Shown here piece by piece: positions 26,251 to 53,033 of a DNA stretch of 64,000 nt; position 1 is the stretch's first letter, and every line of letters starts with the position of its first letter. The notes beneath the pieces were generated by a model. The model ran no database searches. It was given only the letters and a program-made list of their open reading frames with translations, and was not told the DNA's origin. The stretch is taken from assembly GCA_019357535.2 (NCBI GenBank), contig CP079955.1, forward strand, positions 868,001 through 932,000. Direction: 5' to 3'. The translations under genes were made by a program, and so were the position numbers. Source of the DNA: Macrococcus sp. 19Msa1099 (lineage in GTDB: Bacteria; Bacillota; Bacilli; Staphylococcales; Staphylococcaceae).

Positions 26251-27624
26251 ATGAAGTCAGCGAACTTAACGCCAAGACAAATCGTTAGTCATCTTGATGA
26301 ACATATTATCGGTCAGCAGGATGCAAAGAGGAAAGTGGCGGTAAGCTTAAGAAATCGTTACCGTCGTATGGCACTAGATGATGAGATTCAAAAGGAAGTT
26401 ATTCCTAAGAACATATTGATGATTGGGCCAACGGGTGTCGGTAAAACAGAGATAGCGAGACGAATGGCAAAGCTGGTTGGCGCGCCTTTTGTAAAAGTAG
26501 AAGCAACCAAATATACAGAAGTCGGTTATGTAGGTCGCGATGTTGAAAGTATGATAAGGGATCTTACAGAAAATGGTGTCAGGTTAATTAAAGAGAAGAA
26601 AAAACAGGAAGTTCTAGAAGAAGCTAAACGAAATGCAGAAGAACGCCTTGTTAAGTTGCTCGTTCCAGCGATGAAGAAAAAAGAAAATAAAGCTGGAAAT
26701 CCATTTGAAATGCTGTTCAATCAAACTATCCAAGAAGAAGAAGATGCACCAGATGAGCATGTAAAATTAAAACGTAAAGATATTCAAGTTCAGCTGAAAG
26801 CAGGAAAATTAGAAGATGAAACTGTCAAGATTAAAGTAGACCAAGAATTTAAAGGACTGAATATGTTCGGTATGGATATGCAGAACAATCAAATGCAGGA
26901 TATGTTCAGTCAGATGATGCCGAAGAAGAAGGTTGAACGTACGTTAAAGGTTTCAGATGCAAGGGACGTTCTGATTGATGAAGAAGCAACAAAGCTGATC
27001 GATGAAGAATCAATGCATAGTGAAGCTGTAGCCTTAACTGAGCAGTTAGGAATTGTATTTATCGATGAAATAGATAAGATAGCCGGAGGTAACCAAGGGC
27101 CGGATGTTTCAAGACAAGGTGTTCAGCGTGATATATTACCGATTGTTGAAGGTAGTGTAGTTCAGACGAAGTATGGAGCTGTTAATACTGAACACATCCT
27201 ATTCATAGGTGCTGGGGCTTTCCATGTGTCCAAACCAAGCGACCTGATTCCAGAGTTACAAGGGAGGTTCCCGATTCGGGTGGAGCTTGATAAGCTTTCG
27301 GTAGATGATTTCAAAAGAATACTAAAAGAACCGAAACTATCGTTGTTAAAACAGTATGAAAGTTTGCTGGCGACAGAAGATGTTACTATCCAGTTTACGG
27401 ATGAAGCGATTGACAGACTCGCGGAAATGTCCTATGAAGTGAATCAGGAAACAGATAACATTGGTGCAAGACGCCTACATACAATTTTAGAAAAGATGCT
27501 TGAGGATCTGCTGTTTGAGGCTTCGGAAATGCCGAACGCACATGTAGATATTACTGCGCAATATGTCGATGCTAAACTAGGAAACATTACAAAAAATAAA
27601 AATTTAAGTGAATTTATACTTTAA
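26251..27624 (+). CDS. hslU: ATP-dependent protease ATPase subunit HslU
   Basis: AAA+ unfoldase that feeds HslV. Starting at ATG 26251, just after TTAGGAGG, gives 457 residues; an upstream in-frame ATG at 26200 lies inside hslV and is rejected. Walker A GPTGVGKT is at residues 59-66, Walker B is [11 protein letters not shown] near 272, and the conserved [16 protein letters not shown] lies near the end. The intermediate I domain (about 110-240) is charged and variable. The C-terminal SEFIL probably inserts into HslV. Confidence 0.97.
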
Positions 27625-27640
27625 AGGAGTGCCTTTTAAT

Positions 27641-28414
27641 ATGGGATTATTACAAAAAACGAGAAAGATTAACAAACTTTTACAGGAGCATAAAGGGATT
27701 GCAGTTGATTTTAAAGAAATGGCAGATTATCTTGGTTCAACGATGCAATCTAATGTGTTCATCTTATCACGTCGCGGAAAGTTATTAGGTTTTGGTGTTA
27801 ATGAACTACTTAAGAACGAACGCATTATCAAGATGCTTGAGGAACGTCAGTTTCCAGAAACATATGTTGAGCTACTTTTAAATATTGATGAGACAAAGAG
27901 CAATATTCAAATAGAAAATGACCTTTCTGTGTTCCCATCTGAAAATGCAGACTTATTCGCTCAGTCTAATACGGTTATTATCCCGATAAAAGGGGGCGGT
28001 ACACGCCTTGGAACGCTTGTATTAGGCCGTGTAGATAGAGCGTTTGATGATGAGGATCTCGTACTAGGAGAATATGCAGCTACTGTAGTAGGTATGGAAA
28101 TTCTGCGTGAAAAGCACGCTGATGTTGAAAAGCTTGCGAGAGATAAAGCAGCAATCAATATGGCTATTAATTCACTATCGTATTCAGAGAAAGAAGCGAT
28201 TGAACATATCTTTGAAGAATTAGGGGCATCAGAAGGATTACTTGTTGCTTCTAAAGTAGCAGATAGAGTCGGAATCACGCGTTCGGTTATCGTTAATGCA
28301 CTCCGTAAGCTTGAAAGCGCAGGAGTTATTGAATCGCGATCGCTTGGTATGAAGGGTACATTTATCAAAATTAAAAAAGAACATTTCTTAGAGGAACTAT
28401 CTGCGTCACATTAA
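27641..28414 (+). CDS. codY: Global transcriptional regulator CodY
   Basis: GTP- and branched-chain-amino-acid-responsive repressor of nitrogen, amino-acid and virulence genes. ATG 27641 after AAAGGAG gives 257 residues ([15 protein letters not shown]), matching the family; an in-frame ATG at 27608 is inside hslU. An N-terminal GAF effector domain (to about 155) is followed by a winged helix ([21 protein letters not shown]) and GMKGTFIKI at the end. A near-perfect CodY box occurs upstream of the ilv operon in this window, so a likely target is nearby. The stop lies in a TCACATT-AATC-AATGTGA hairpin without a T-tract. Confidence 0.98.
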
Positions 28415-46722: not shown

Positions 46723-46771
46723 TAAAGCTATTTCTGAGAGTTGAAAGAAGAGAAGACTAAACTACAATATT

Positions 46772-46806
46772 AAAACACTTCACGAAAATTCGTGAAGTGT
46801 TTTTTT
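46772..46806. terminator. Bidirectional terminator between infB and ilvA
   Basis: AACACTTCACGAA-AA-TTCGTGAAGTGTT with A-run and T-run on either side. It closes both converging units and touches the ilvA stop codon. Confidence 0.92.
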
Positions 46807-48067
46807 AGATTAATAGGGAATAGAGCATTTCATTATTGTTAACGGCGATATACTTAGGATCGAACTGCTGCACACGTTGGTAGAGACTATTTTTATCGCT
46901 CTTATCTTTCAGTTGTACGCCAATGATGACAGCACCTTTACTTCTTGCAGTTTTCTTGAGGTATTCAAACTTTGTGATATCATCTTCAGGACCCAGTACA
47001 TCGTTAACAAATGTTTTCAGTGCACCTGGTCGCTGTGGAAAGTTAACGATAAAGTAATGTTTTAAAGATTCATACAGGAGTGCACGTTCTTCAATTTCAT
47101 TCATACGATTGATATCATTATTGCTACCGCTGATGATACATACAACATTCTTGCCGATGATATGATCCTTAAAATGTTCCAGAGCACTTACACTCAGTGC
47201 ACCTGCAGGTTCAGCGACAATCGCTTGTTTTGTATACATGTCGATGATTGTGCTGCAGACCTGTCCTTCATCGATAGCGATACAATCATCGATCACCTGT
47301 CGTGCGATATCAAATGTCAGTGCGCCCACAGTTGCTACAGCAGCACCGTCTACGAACTTATCGATAGCATCTAATGTGAGTCTCGTCCCTTTTTCAAGAG
47401 ATTGTTTCATGCTGCTTGCACCACGAGGTTCTACTGCAATGATCTGCGTTTCTTTGCTGACATCCTTAAGATATGTACCAACACCTGATATTAATCCACC
47501 ACCACCGACCGCCTGAAAACAGTAGTCGATTACAGGTTGATCCATAAAGATTTCCTTTGCGACAGTTCCTTGGCCAGCCACTGTATGATTGTTATCGAAA
47601 GGATCGATAAAACTAAGGTTATGATCTTCTGTATATTGTAGCGCGGCAGCAAGACACTCATCAAATGTATCTCCATACAGTTTAATCTCCACGTTATCTT
47701 GCCCAAAGAACTTGACCTGTTCTATCTTCTGGTTCGGTGTAGTTACCGGCATAAAGATGACTGCGTGCAGGTCGAGTTTATTTGCAGTGTAGGCGACACC
47801 TTGTGCATGGTTGCCGGCACTGGCACAGCTGATACCTTGCTGTCGAACCGCGGGCGTCAGCTGGCTGACGGCATAATAGGCCCCTCTTAGCTTGAACGAG
47901 CGTACCCATTGCAGATCTTCGCGTTTCAGGTAAACATTGCACTGATATTTTTGAGATAGATATAGATCCTTTTCAAGTGGTGTATGCTTGACTACATGTT
48001 TCAGTACTTCATATGCCGCTTCTATATCATCTTTTGTAACAGGCATCTTTGTATGCGTATGGTTCAT
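46805..48067 (-). CDS. ilvA: Threonine dehydratase, biosynthetic
   Basis: PLP enzyme making 2-oxobutanoate from threonine, the first committed step to isoleucine. 420 residues: PLP lysine in [12 protein letters not shown], glycine loop [20 protein letters not shown], and a C-terminal ACT-like regulatory domain (about 325-420, [14 protein letters not shown]). The regulatory domain marks the biosynthetic form. It follows ilvC by 12 nt with GAGGAGG; in S. aureus leuABCD stand between these two genes. Confidence 0.97.
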
Positions 48068-48079
48068 ACTATTCCTCCT

Positions 48080-49313
<1,234 letters not shown>

Positions 49314-49317
<4 letters not shown>

Positions 49318-50981
49318 TCGTATCCCTCCACTTCATGATTAGGTTTCCCAGATGGAACCATTGGAACCACCATCTCATCAGGGGAGATTCTGATCTCGAT
49401 GAACGCAGGACCTTGATAAGCAAGTGCTTCATAAAGTGTCGCTTCCAGAGCCTGTTGCTGCGTGATAAGGTAGGGTTTGACGCCATATGCGTTGCTCAGC
49501 ATCTGAAAGTCAGGCTGTCCACTGAAGACTGACTCGCTATAACGCTGACCATGGAATTTATGCTGCCATTGTTTCACCATGCCGAGCGTACCATTGTTCA
49601 GCATGATGATTTTGACCGGGAGCTGATATTCGTTTAATATCGCCATTTCCTGGTTGGTCATCTGAAAGCCGCCATCACCGACAATAGCAACTACCATCTG
49701 ATTAGGTGCGCCAAGCTGTGCACCGATTGCAGCAGGAATACCGTAGCCCATCGTGCCGAGACCACCACTTGTGATCAGCTGTGCCTTCTTGAATGGATAG
49801 TATTGGGCGGTCCACATCTGATGCTGACCTACATCCGTTGCAACAACGGCTTCATCTGTAAACCTACCGATAAGTTCAACCACATGTTGTGGTCTGATGA
49901 AAGTTTCGGCCTGTCTATACTTGAAGGGGTACTGCTGATGTCTTTCGATACATATCTCTGTCCAGCTGCTGTCGACAGAGCAAGGTAGATCCAGCAGCTG
50001 TGTAAGAACCGACCTGACATCTCCGTGGATTGCGAGGTCAGCTTGTATAACCTTATTAAGTTCACTTTGATCTATATCGATATGAACGATCTGTTTGTTC
50101 TGCTGAAAGGCTGCAACATCTCCGATGAGCCTGTCATCGAACCGACTCCCGAAGTTGATCACGCAGTCACTTTCAGAAAGTGCCATGTTCGCAGCATAGC
50201 TCCCATGCATGCCCCCCATACCTAAAAAGAGGGGATTATCGTATGGAACTGCGCCAAGTCCGAGCAATGTTGTCACTACTGGGAGATGGTATTTTTCTGC
50301 AAAACGTGTCAGCATATCGTTTGACTGAGAATGATTGATACCTGCCCCTGCCAATAGAAGCGGACGCTGTGCTTGAGCAAGTAAATTTGCCAGCTCGTGG
50401 ACTGTTTCAATGTCAACATTTGGTGCAAGTGTGTAACCCGGCAGGTTCATCTCAGTCTGTAGCGGGCCTCTAGCCTTACTGATACCGATATCTTTAGGAA
50501 AATCTATAACTACTGGTCCTTTACGTCCTGTACTGGCTACGTGAAAGGCTTCGTTGATAACTCGAGGTATCTCTTCGACTGAGCGAATCTGATAGTTATG
50601 TTTCGTGATTGGTGCTGTCAGCGAAATCAGATCTGCTTCCTGGAATGCATCTAGTCCGATACCTTGCTGATGCACTTGTCCTGTGATGACGACAAGGGGC
50701 AATGAGTCACAGTAAGCATCTGTTATACCGGTTACTGCATTCGTCGCTCCAGGACCACTTGTCAGCACGACAACCCCAGCTTTGCCACTTGAACGTGCGT
50801 AGCCTTCTGCGGCGTGTATCGCACCTTGTTCATGACGTGTCAGGATATGTTTGAAAGGTGCATCGTAGAATGCATCATAAAGTGGAAGTACCGCACCTCC
50901 TGGATATCCAAAGACGTATTCTACATCGTTGTCAACGAAAGATTGCACAAGCAGTTGTGCGCCTGTTTGTTCATGGTTCAT
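49314..50981 (-). CDS. ilvB: Acetolactate synthase large subunit
   Basis: ThDP- and FAD-dependent enzyme making acetolactate (valine) or acetohydroxybutyrate (isoleucine). 555 residues: catalytic glutamate in RHEQGAIHAAEGYAR, ThDP/Mg site GDGGFQMTNQEMAIL...NNGTLGMVKQWQ. AGGAGG before the ATG. Second gene of the operon, 11 nt after ilvD. Confidence 0.97.
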
Positions 50982-50992
50982 GGTATTCCTCC

Positions 50993-52681
50993 TTATAATA
51001 GATGTTCTGGTATCTGCATGACACCGCCTGTATTAGCACTTGTGACAAGTGCTGTATAACGTGCGAGGTATCCAGATCTAACTTTTGCCTTAAAAGGTTG
51101 TAGGTGTGCCTTACGTTGCTTTAGTTCATCATCTGTTACATCGACGTTCAGCGTACGATGCACAAGGTCGATGGTGACCATATCTCCATCTTCAATGAGT
51201 GCGATAGGTCCCAAAGCCGCTGCTTCAGGTGAGATATGTCCGACTGCAATACCACGGGTTGCACCTGAGAACCTTCCATCAGTGATCAAGGCGACCTCCT
51301 TACCGAGGCCACGTCCGACGATGGATGAAGTAGGGGCAAGCATCTCAGGCATCCCTGGACCACCTTTTGGACCTTCGTATCTTATAACGACGACATGGCC
51401 CGGACGTACTGTATGGTTATCGATTGCCGCGACCGCTTCGTCATGGCTATCAAAACAAATGGCTGCACCGGTGAACGTCTGTATAGAAGGATCGACACCG
51501 CCTACTTTGATAACCCCTCCAAGTGGAGCGATATTACCATGAAGCATCGAAAGACCGCCGTGTTCACTGTAAGGGCTATCCAGTGTATGGATGACTTCCT
51601 CATTTTGTATTGTGTGAGCAGCATTATTGTCGCGTAGAGTAGCACCAGTAACTGTCATGCGGTCAGGATGAAGAATTCCTTCACGCTTCATCAGTTCATT
51701 GATGATTGCAGGTACACCCCCTGCGTTATGTACATCATGCATGGAGTAAGAAGAACTTGGTGCAATCTTCGATAAGTAGGGTGTTTTTTCAGCTATTTCG
51801 TTGATACGCTCTAAGTCATAGTCGATACCCGCTTCGTTTGCAAGTGCGAGTGTGTGAAGAACAGTATTTGTGGAACCACCCATCGCCATATCCAGCGCAA
51901 ATGCATCGTCGATTGCCTCTTTTGTTACGATATCCTTCGGTTTGATATCACGTTTGACAAGATCCATCAGCTTAAACGCACTCTCTCTGATCAGTGCTCT
52001 ACGTTCTTTACTGACGGCAAGTGCAGTACCATTGAAGGGGAGTGCAAGTCCGAGCACTTCCATCAGACAGTTCATGGAGTTTGCAGTAAACATACCAGCA
52101 CAAGAACCACATGTCGGACATGCATTTTGTTCCATATCAAGAAAGTCCTCTTTTGTGAGTGTACCTTCCTTGAACGCACCGACCGCTTCAAACATGCTAG
52201 ATAATGTCAGTGCCTTGCCGGTAGCGGATAATCCTGCCTTCATCGGACCTCCTGAGCAGAAGATAGCAGGAACGTTCGTTCTTACAGCAGCGAGCAGCAT
52301 GCCAGGTGTTATCTTATCGCAGTTCGGAATATAGAAGACACCATCAAACCAGTGGGCATTGATAACTGTCTCTGCTGCGTCAGCTATGATTTCACGGCTC
52401 GGCAGAGAATACCTCATGCCGATATGACCCATAGCGATTCCGTCATCAACACCGATCGTATTAAATTCAAACGGTATGCCACCTGCTTCTCTAATCGCTT
52501 CTTTTGCGATGTCTGCAAGTTCTCTTAGATGAACATGTCCAGGGACGATATCGATATATGAGTTGCAGATTGCAATAAATGGTTTATTCATATCTTCTGG
52601 TGACTTAATTTGTCCCGTTGCGTGCAGTAGGCTGCGGGCCGGTGCTTGTTCAGGTCCTTTTTTGATCATATTACTTCTCAT
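50993..52681 (-). CDS. ilvD: Dihydroxy-acid dehydratase
   Basis: Fe-S enzyme that makes the 2-oxo acids of isoleucine and valine. 562 residues starting [23 protein letters not shown]; cluster cysteines in NCDKITPGM and [31 protein letters not shown] region ([15 protein letters not shown] here). First structural gene; GGGAGG at 52686-52691 lies just after the attenuator T-run. Confidence 0.97.
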
Positions 52682-52707
52682 ATAAATCCTCCCTTAATTT
52701 TACAAAC

Positions 52708-52739
52708 AAAAAAAACGATGCCCTGAATAGGACATCGTT
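52708..52739 (-). terminator. ilv attenuator terminator
   Basis: On the minus strand AACGATGTCC pairs with GGGCATCGTT (10 bp, one G-U) around TATTCA, followed by a T-run. It lies between the leader peptide and ilvD, so it controls entry into the operon. Confidence 0.9.
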
Positions 52740-52742
52740 CCC

Positions 52743-52767
52743 AGTCCTATTCATGTGAAATAGGACT
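52743..52767 (-). promoter_or_regulatory. ilv attenuator upstream hairpin (segments 1 and 2)
   Basis: AGTCCTATT and AATAGGACT form a 9-bp stem around a 7-nt loop. The AATAGGAC arm can instead pair with GTCCTATT in the terminator's left arm, giving an antiterminator. These are the alternative pairings of a classical amino-acid attenuator. Confidence 0.8.
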
Positions 52768-52788
52768 TAAACTTATAAGTAGTGTAAT

Positions 52789-52863
52789 CTACCTACAGTT
52801 CCAGTCCGGACCGATAATAATAATAATGTTGTTAAGTTGTAAATGTCTGTTATTCATCATCAT
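52789..52863 (-). CDS. ilv operon leader peptide (isoleucine-rich)
   Basis: A 24-codon ORF on the minus strand: MMMNNRHLQLNN, then five Ile codons in a row (ATT x4, ATC), then GPDWNCR and TAG. AGGAAGG at 52868-52874 gives best spacing to the second or third ATG. It begins about 20 nt after the predicted transcription start and ends just before the paired hairpins. A ribosome stalled at the Ile codons would favour the antiterminator. It has two Leu and no Val codons. Function is inferred from layout. Confidence 0.88.
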   Translation of the reverse strand: MMMNNRHLQLNNIIIIIGPDWNCR

Positions 52864-52892
52864 CTGTCCTTCCTGTTTTTTTGTATGTTACA

Positions 52893-52921
52893 AATTTAAA
52901 GTAAAATGACATAGATGTCAA
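52893..52921 (-). promoter_or_regulatory. ilv operon promoter
   Basis: On the minus strand: TTGACA (52921-52916), 17-nt spacer, TAAATT (52898-52893). Confidence 0.75.
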
Positions 52922-52933
52922 CACAATATTTAA

Positions 52934-52948
52934 AATTTTCTAAAAATT
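52934..52948. promoter_or_regulatory. CodY-binding box upstream of the ilv promoter
   Basis: AATTTTCTAAAAATT matches 14 of 15 positions of the CodY consensus AATTTTCWGAAAATT. It lies 12 nt upstream of the ilv -35 box and 24 nt upstream of the rbfA -35 box. CodY repression of ilv genes is established in staphylococci and bacilli. Confidence 0.8.
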
Positions 52949-52972
52949 AAGCAAAATACAAAAACGCAAAAA

Positions 52973-53002
52973 TTGACAATCAGCAGTTTGAATCCTTATA
53001 AT
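52973..53002 (+). promoter_or_regulatory. rbfA promoter
   Basis: Perfect TTGACA (52973-52978), an 18-nt spacer and perfect TATAAT (52997-53002), 31 nt before the rbfA ATG. It replaces the read-through from infB that is lost because of the ilv insertion. Confidence 0.8.
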
Positions 53003-53033
53003 AAAAGTAATCGAAAGTATAGAGGTGAAGTAT

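Follow-up and report, generated by a model that had tools for sequence, protein, structure and literature searches.

The enteric trp, his and ilvGMEDA attenuators combine codons cognate to the product of the operon with alternative hairpins and a terminator. A ribosome-mediated attenuator of an ilv-leu operon, Rli60 of Listeria monocytogenes, is the subject of a study by Brenner et al. (2018; PMC5864092). The corresponding Staphylococcus aureus attenuator, upstream of ilvD, was described in the same year (Kaiser et al., 2018; PMC5794164), and PMC12333996 equates it with Rli60. The S. aureus leader ORF is listed among the data of a ribosome profiling study as a previously reported sORF of the operon (PMC13009471). 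The S. aureus and Listeria studies propose different antiterminators, and no single simple model explains the mutants of both.

We examined the leader of the ilvD operon of Macrococcus sp. 19Msa1099 within a 64,000-nucleotide stretch of its genome (the window). We judge, with a probability of roughly 0.75, that this leader is a ribosome-mediated attenuator, diverged from but related to the staphylococcal ilvD attenuator and Rli60, with an Ile-dominant sensor after loss of leuABCD.

The ilvD operon and its leader

All elements of the original prediction, made from the sequence of this locus (a CodY box, a promoter, a leader ORF, RNA arms and a terminator), are present where it placed them, and its interpretation of the element is partly supported. 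Behind the leader, the genes lie in the order ilvD-ilvB-(ilvN)-ilvC-ilvA on the minus strand; ilvD, ilvB, ilvC and ilvA are full-length and score over their family cut-offs. The operon, its presumed regulator and the elements of the promoter and leader ORF are:

50993..52681, minus strand: ilvD, dihydroxy-acid dehydratase (NCBIfam TIGR00110, over cut-off)
49314..50981, minus strand: ilvB, acetolactate synthase large subunit (NCBIfam TIGR00118, over cut-off)
49072..49317, minus strand: putative ilvN, 81 aa, named by position only (no NCBIfam match at 1e-8)
48080..49072, minus strand: ilvC, ketol-acid reductoisomerase (NCBIfam TIGR00465, over cut-off)
46805..48067, minus strand: ilvA, threonine ammonia-lyase (NCBIfam NF006390, over cut-off)
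27608..28414, plus strand: codY, presumed trans-acting repressor (TIGR02787, over cut-off; PF06018)
52934..52948, minus strand: CodY-like palindrome AATTTTTAGAAAATT directly upstream of the −35 element, 14/15 with 1 mismatch to consensus
52893..52921, minus strand: promoter TTGACA-17-TAAATT, 10/12 match, with a predicted transcription start near 52886
52867..52874, minus strand: Shine-Dalgarno (SD) sequence AGGAAGGA of the leader ORF, from the sequence
52789..52863, minus strand: leader ORF MMMNNRHLQLNNIIIIIGPDWNCR, 24 codons and TAG; the same in genome G005 except for six Ile codons
52813..52827, minus strand: sensor run of five Ile codons, ATT ATT ATT ATT ATC, from the sequence

The CodY-box consensus is AATTTTCWGAAAATT, and mismatches were counted against this form. 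The predicted 14/15 box upstream of a good promoter was found, and the box (52948-52934) is the only site in the window with fewer than three mismatches. Sites with up to three mismatches number 10, against 9.64 expected; because this count is close to chance expectation, the single better site stands out. The best match to this consensus was 12–14/15 in 94/94 promoter regions of the family and mostly 10–11/15 in mononucleotide shuffles of 60 of these regions. With codY in the genome and a box at the promoter, the operon is a predicted member of the CodY regulon. The CodY layer of the prediction thus finds both its gene and a good CodY-like box, at which binding is putative; at high Ile, CodY would probably repress initiation. 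The CodY-like box lies upstream of the −35 element here and in G005; in six other leaders inspected, the best CodY match lies downstream of the promoter in four and upstream in two.

A 24-codon leader peptide with five consecutive Ile codons had been predicted, and this short ORF, rich in codons for a product amino acid, is present on the minus strand behind a Shine-Dalgarno sequence. Dinucleotide shuffling of a 170-nt stretch 20,000 times never produced an ORF with both an upstream SD sequence and five successive Ile codons; with the SD requirement dropped, two of the shuffles did so.

The operon (46723-53024) lies in inverted orientation between infB and rbfA. G003 (L194), a near relative, has nothing in the ~110 nt that separate infB from rbfA, and its rbfA promoter region resembles the one here; judged from these sequences, either the operon moved or was inserted here, or it was cleanly lost in G003. 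Three further genomes of the genus have a short piece of the infB 3′ end near rbfA, beside long inserts: L195 (13418-13492), L198 (3885-3962) and L200 (4312-4473). These pieces resemble traces left by integrating elements. A full infB was also seen only in L195, and is outside the fetched stretch in L198 and L200. An ORF of 298–299 aa lies between infB sequence and rbfA in L196, L197, L198 and L199. The infB-rbfA site looks like an insertion hot spot.

Leucine codons and leucine genes

Our family sample comprised 108 genomes, 94 of which carry ilvD. All 94 carriers have, upstream of ilvD, a leader ORF containing a BCAA run, a count that shows presence and not rarity by chance, because the rule by which leaders were picked demanded an ATG, an SD sequence and a BCAA run. 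Between ilvC and ilvA, 91 of the 94 carry leuABCD; it is missing in this genome, in G005 and in G034 (by gene content probably Staphylococcus canis). The sensor run holds two or three Leu codons in 91/91 genomes with leuABCD and 0, 0 and 1 in the three genomes without, whose runs read IIIII (here), IIIIII (G005) and IIVIIL (S. canis). A genome-wide search of the 94 carriers found leuA absent in exactly these three; for leuC, the three gave just aconitase-like matches with 27–32% identity and no proper gene. The predicted loss of leuABCD from the operon therefore holds, and extends to leuA and leuC anywhere in the genome.

On an IlvD tree (95 rows, built by a quick method with SH-aLRT support only), a deep branch of the family unites this genome with G005, without resolution against the Mammaliicoccus-like and Staphylococcus-like rows. 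S. canis (L155) falls among staphylococci with leu genes, in a clade of 21 (SH-aLRT 97), and its sister there is L117, with the leader run VIILL (SH-aLRT 93). Because it is nested in this way, Leu was lost in S. canis and not ancestrally absent. In the Listeria outgroup the genes are ordered alike, leuABCD included (L035; eight loci). As to INDEPENDENCE and direction, the tree and the Listeria gene order indicate at least two losses of leu genes and of Leu codons. A change of the sensor accompanying leu loss, as the original prediction had it, is thus supported in sequence comparisons by two independent events, here and again in S. canis.

The nature of the change differs from what had been proposed. 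The S. aureus leader, called leucine-rich in the original prediction, does carry Leu codons, but three Ile codons precede them (PMC5794164). The change is therefore a loss of Leu and an extension of Ile; the codons did not switch to a new Ile sense. The presence of ilvA, offered to account for Ile sensing, explains nothing, because ilvA lies downstream in all 94 carriers.

A set of 35 genomes included 31 outside the family without a leu gene beside ilvD. Of these, 29 have a proper leuA elsewhere in the genome (E 1e-120 or better), and a leader was found in 29 of the 31. Leu is kept in the run of 26 of the 27 outside-family leaders with a proper leuA (the exception is L071), and a rule tied solely to leu genes adjoining ilvD was rejected on this ground. 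Two Sporolactobacillus genomes lack a proper leuC: L064 has no leuA and the run VVIII; L066 has a weak LeuA-like match and the run VLIII, like its kin with leu genes. In the order of G424, 118 of 395 genomes carry ilvD (E 1e-180 or better) and none of these lacks leuA, all 118 being in the leuA list, so the state with ilvD and without leuA is rare. The rule linking Leu codons to leu genes is clean within Staphylococcaceae, where it rests on two events, and has exceptions beyond.

Pairing in the leader RNA and predicted ribosome positions

The leader folds with a stability z of −8.1, and 0 of 200 shuffles were as stable. Mutually exclusive hairpins and an intrinsic terminator precede the first gene:

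52789..52807, minus strand: arm A, overlapping the ORF end and stop codon; pairs with arm B (swap tests, pair counts)
52758..52782, minus strand: arm B, the AGTCCTATTT region; 52782-52763 pairs with A and 52767-52758 with C
52743..52752, minus strand: arm C, GAATAGGACT; pairs with B or D
52725..52733, minus strand: arm D, GTCCTATTC; pairs with C (9/9) or E
52711..52742, minus strand: terminator hairpin D:E, 14 pairs
52708..52715, minus strand: terminator U-tract, 8 T, from the sequence

The alternative arms and the terminator with a T-run had both been predicted and are found, the latter with 14 pairs and 8 T. The switch had been drawn with three arms (AGTCCTATTT / GAATAGGACT / GTCCTATTC), whose exclusive pairing stands; the scheme was incomplete, in that the upstream arm A (52807-52789) was missed. 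All three named arms lie outside the ORF; a ribosome could act on them only via arm A. Two layouts of the stop codon occur: it lies 12–18 nt downstream of where arm A begins in 52/93 leaders and 2–4 nt upstream of A in 41/93.

In an alignment of 84 leaders with most duplicates dropped (A1), 98.8% of cells are paired in the outer part of A:B (two pairs changed on both sides), 98.0% in D:E (four pairs changed on both sides), 97.5% in B:C (none) and 86.8% in C:D (one). Own partners beat swapped partners for A:B, inner A:B and D:E (0/2000), also among 21 diverged representatives with <93% IlvD identity (0/5000). The swap test is weak for C:D (34/2000; 212/5000 with the 21 representatives), and for B:C, which hardly varies, it gave 1059/2000. 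In the present lineage arms C, D and E have each changed at one site, and B:C, C:D and D:E all stay paired.

Ribosome positions were modelled as masks of 11, 13 or 15 nt on 93 leaders (the 94 less G079, with its decayed ilvD). G079 (L175) has nine stops in ilvD, and has kept the leader ORF and lost terminator arms D and E. On a transcript cut off behind arm D, stalling at the first run codon is predicted to give A:B and C:D in 93/93 leaders, and with the ribosome on the stop codon B:C is predicted in 91/93. With all three masks, the first run codon falls in the predicted read-through zone and the second codon past the run in the predicted termination zone in 92/93; in the model, the sensor run sits at the end of the zone where stalling matters. 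The read-through part of the run has no Leu in the three genomes without leu genes, and at least one Leu in 90/90 genomes with them at masks 11 and 13 (89/90 at mask 15). Sequence comparison establishes the ORF, conservation of the alternative pairings A:B, B:C and D:E, the placement of the run across the family and the link between Leu codons and leu genes.

For the present genome, the stop-codon state predicts termination at masks 13 and 15 and read-through at mask 11. Once the terminator is complete, equilibrium folding makes D:E most stable in 92–93 of 93 leaders in every state; because the finished leader favours D:E whatever the state, read-through must be kinetic. Folding in the absence of translation gives C:D, that is, predicted read-through, in 92/93. 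This prediction of the simplest model is contradicted by Listeria start-codon and RBS mutants, in which ilvD transcription is lowered (PMC5864092). S. aureus suppressor mutants selected for growth without Val represent relief of repression (PMC5794164). We mapped their mutations on three S. aureus-like leaders. One places a stop at Leu19 (of the three TTA codons, no other agrees with positions +203 and +205), others hit two bases in arm B, and a deletion removes D together with most of E. These sites are as the model predicts: an early stop would free A, and a damaged B could not hold C.

We propose the following sequence of events. When Ile-tRNA is short, a ribosome would stall at the first Ile codons, leaving arm A free to take B; with B held by A, C would pair with D, the terminator D:E would be delayed and the operon would be read. 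With ample Ile, the ribosome would reach the stop codon and cover A, and B would take C; with C held by B, D would be free, D:E would form and transcription would end.

The antiterminator may alternatively be something other than C:D, with arm C (GAAUGG) pairing with the U-tract and leaving the terminator stem intact, as was proposed for S. aureus (PMC5794164). Indeed, the most stable fold here from arm A to past the U-tract, with A:B formed, has C on the U-tract and the terminator intact. When an intrinsic terminator acts, however, the U-tract is still inside the polymerase, so pairing of C with it would come too late, and C, D and E have changed together in this lineage to leave C:D paired at 9/9. 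We regard pairing of C with the U-tract as unlikely and retain C:D as the probable antiterminator.

The whole-leader fold contains a further pairing, overlooked in the original prediction, in which the SD sequence and an AUG triplet pair with the Ile codons (P0):

52854..52869, minus strand: P0 5′ strand, the SD end and AUG triplet; pairs with 52808-52823 at −17.6 kcal/mol
52808..52823, minus strand: P0 3′ strand, Ile codons and GTCC; pairs with 52854-52869

P0 has z < −2 in 90/93 family leaders. Over 73 distinct pairs, native partners average −17.5 and swapped ones −13.4 (0/2000); with the 21 representatives the means are −17.2 and −11.9 (0/5000). Compensating sets are GAGCAUAA/UUAUGCUC, GAGUAUAA/UUAUACUC and GCGUAA/UUACGC. 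P0 as a general feature of such leaders was rejected, as 0/39 outside-family leaders have z < −2. At eight Listeria loci a strong helix between RBS and sensor was not seen (z −1.2 to +0.2); the Rfam rli60 consensus has a helix at the place of P0. The accessible text of the published sources holds no statement that sensor codons pair with the RBS.

In the model, P0 may block re-initiation at the leader after the first ribosome has passed: a stalled ribosome would keep the RBS open, one that has passed would let P0 close, and vacated sensor codons paired with the RBS may limit a transcript to one reading ribosome. Tentatively, and with the odds somewhat against it, we suggest that the sensor codons of Staphylococcaceae are doubly used, being read and serving as complement of the RBS and start. 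There would then be one reading per transcript, specificity would shift only together with the RBS, and the sensed set would follow pathway content. Such a constraint between RBS and codons may be why the leader begins AUG-AUG-AUG opposite (AUU)n. If this is true, loss of leu genes would entail loss of Leu codons, with the RBS changing alongside.

Sensor specificity and relation to known attenuators

Two of nine genomes of the genus, this one and G005, carry ilvD, and conservation of the leader could be checked in this one close relative. The Ile run and the pairing arms are conserved in G005, whose leader is identical save for six Ile codons. From the predicted transcription start to ilvD there are no substitutions over ~205 nt; the sole change in the leader is a 3-nt insertion (an extra ATT) that adds one sensor codon. 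Over the same comparison 72 of 562 third positions of ilvD differ, as do 15 of 215 columns upstream of the predicted transcription start. Because the leader is unsubstituted while ilvD third positions have diverged, it is under strong constraint. The Ile run is an ATT microsatellite, (ATT)4ATC here (52813-52827) and (ATT)5ATC in G005 (L083), and slippage may tune the sensor. In theory, sensitivity rises with the fraction of regulatory codons (PMC1183508), which makes the difference between five and six ATT codons of interest.

The sensor had been called isoleucine-specific. The run of five Ile codons points that way, but exclusivity is doubtful: ahead of the run the ORF keeps Leu8 and Leu10, at positions for which stalling likewise predicts read-through. 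The sensor could still be a general BCAA sensor of unchanged specificity, its Ile run a drifted microsatellite. The remaining Leu codons fit such a sensor, the length difference from G005 resembles slippage, and the family offers just two independent losses. Against drift stand the unsubstituted leader, the two lineages without Leu in a read-through part that keeps Leu in all 90 genomes with leu genes at masks 11 and 13, and RBS pairing (P0) retained through the sensor change. We think an unchanged general sensor improbable and favour the Ile-dominant one.

Decay can be given much less weight. Patchy presence, with seven of the nine genomes of the genus lacking ilvD, would suit an operon and leader that are a dying relic without leu genes; the full-length ilvD, ilvB, ilvC and ilvA, all over cut-offs, and the strong purifying selection on the leader make this very unlikely. 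Translation-independent control by a T-box, as used for B. subtilis ilv-leu (PMC5794164), or by another riboswitch can be practically dismissed and was rejected on absent Rfam matches at the leader: none of the 13 T-box (RF00230) matches in the genome is at ilvD, nothing in the window reaches an Rfam gathering cut-off, and at a relaxed cut-off the leader matches only rli60.

That match of the Rfam rli60 model in the window reaches 40.8 bits (E 2e-4, 331 nt), below the cut-off of 60; as expected for Rli60, the leader precedes an ilvD operon and contains a BCAA ORF. Among other leaders scanned, rli60 scored over cut-off for an S. aureus-like one (L101, 136.6 bits) and a Mammaliicoccus-like one (L087, 82.1 bits), and not for L083, S. 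canis (L155) or the Listeria locus L035.

Among the matches listed in the open-access literature, we found nothing on BCAA leaders of Macrococcus or S. canis or on leu loss in relation to leader codons, and the main text of PMC5794164 does not mention Macrococcus. The leaders described here amount to a natural experiment on sensor specificity, in which Leu codons disappear along with leu genes, on two occasions within one family, and the RNA switch persists; P0 and arm A offer direct and cheap tests of Gram-positive BCAA attenuators.

With the S. aureus ilvD attenuator, this locus shares its position upstream of ilvD, CodY and a leader peptide, alignable arms A–E and the place of the terminator. 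It differs in that the S. aureus leader has IIILL and further Leu codons with leuABCD in the operon, versus IIIII and no leu genes here, and in that the antiterminator proposed there is C with the U-tract (PMC5794164), here C:D. Rli60 of L. monocytogenes (RF02414; PMC5864092) is likewise a ribosome-mediated ilv-leu attenuator with a short BCAA ORF; its peptide has 13 aa, against 24 codons here, and the Listeria operon contains leuABCD at eight loci, whereas the operon here does not. Like the enteric trp, his and ilvGMEDA attenuators (the trp scheme is given in PMC1183508), the present leader has cognate regulatory codons, alternative hairpins and a terminator; unlike them, it has an extra arm, A, that links the ribosome to arms outside the ORF. 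The class of attenuator is already known, and this Ile-dominant form is a new variation on it.
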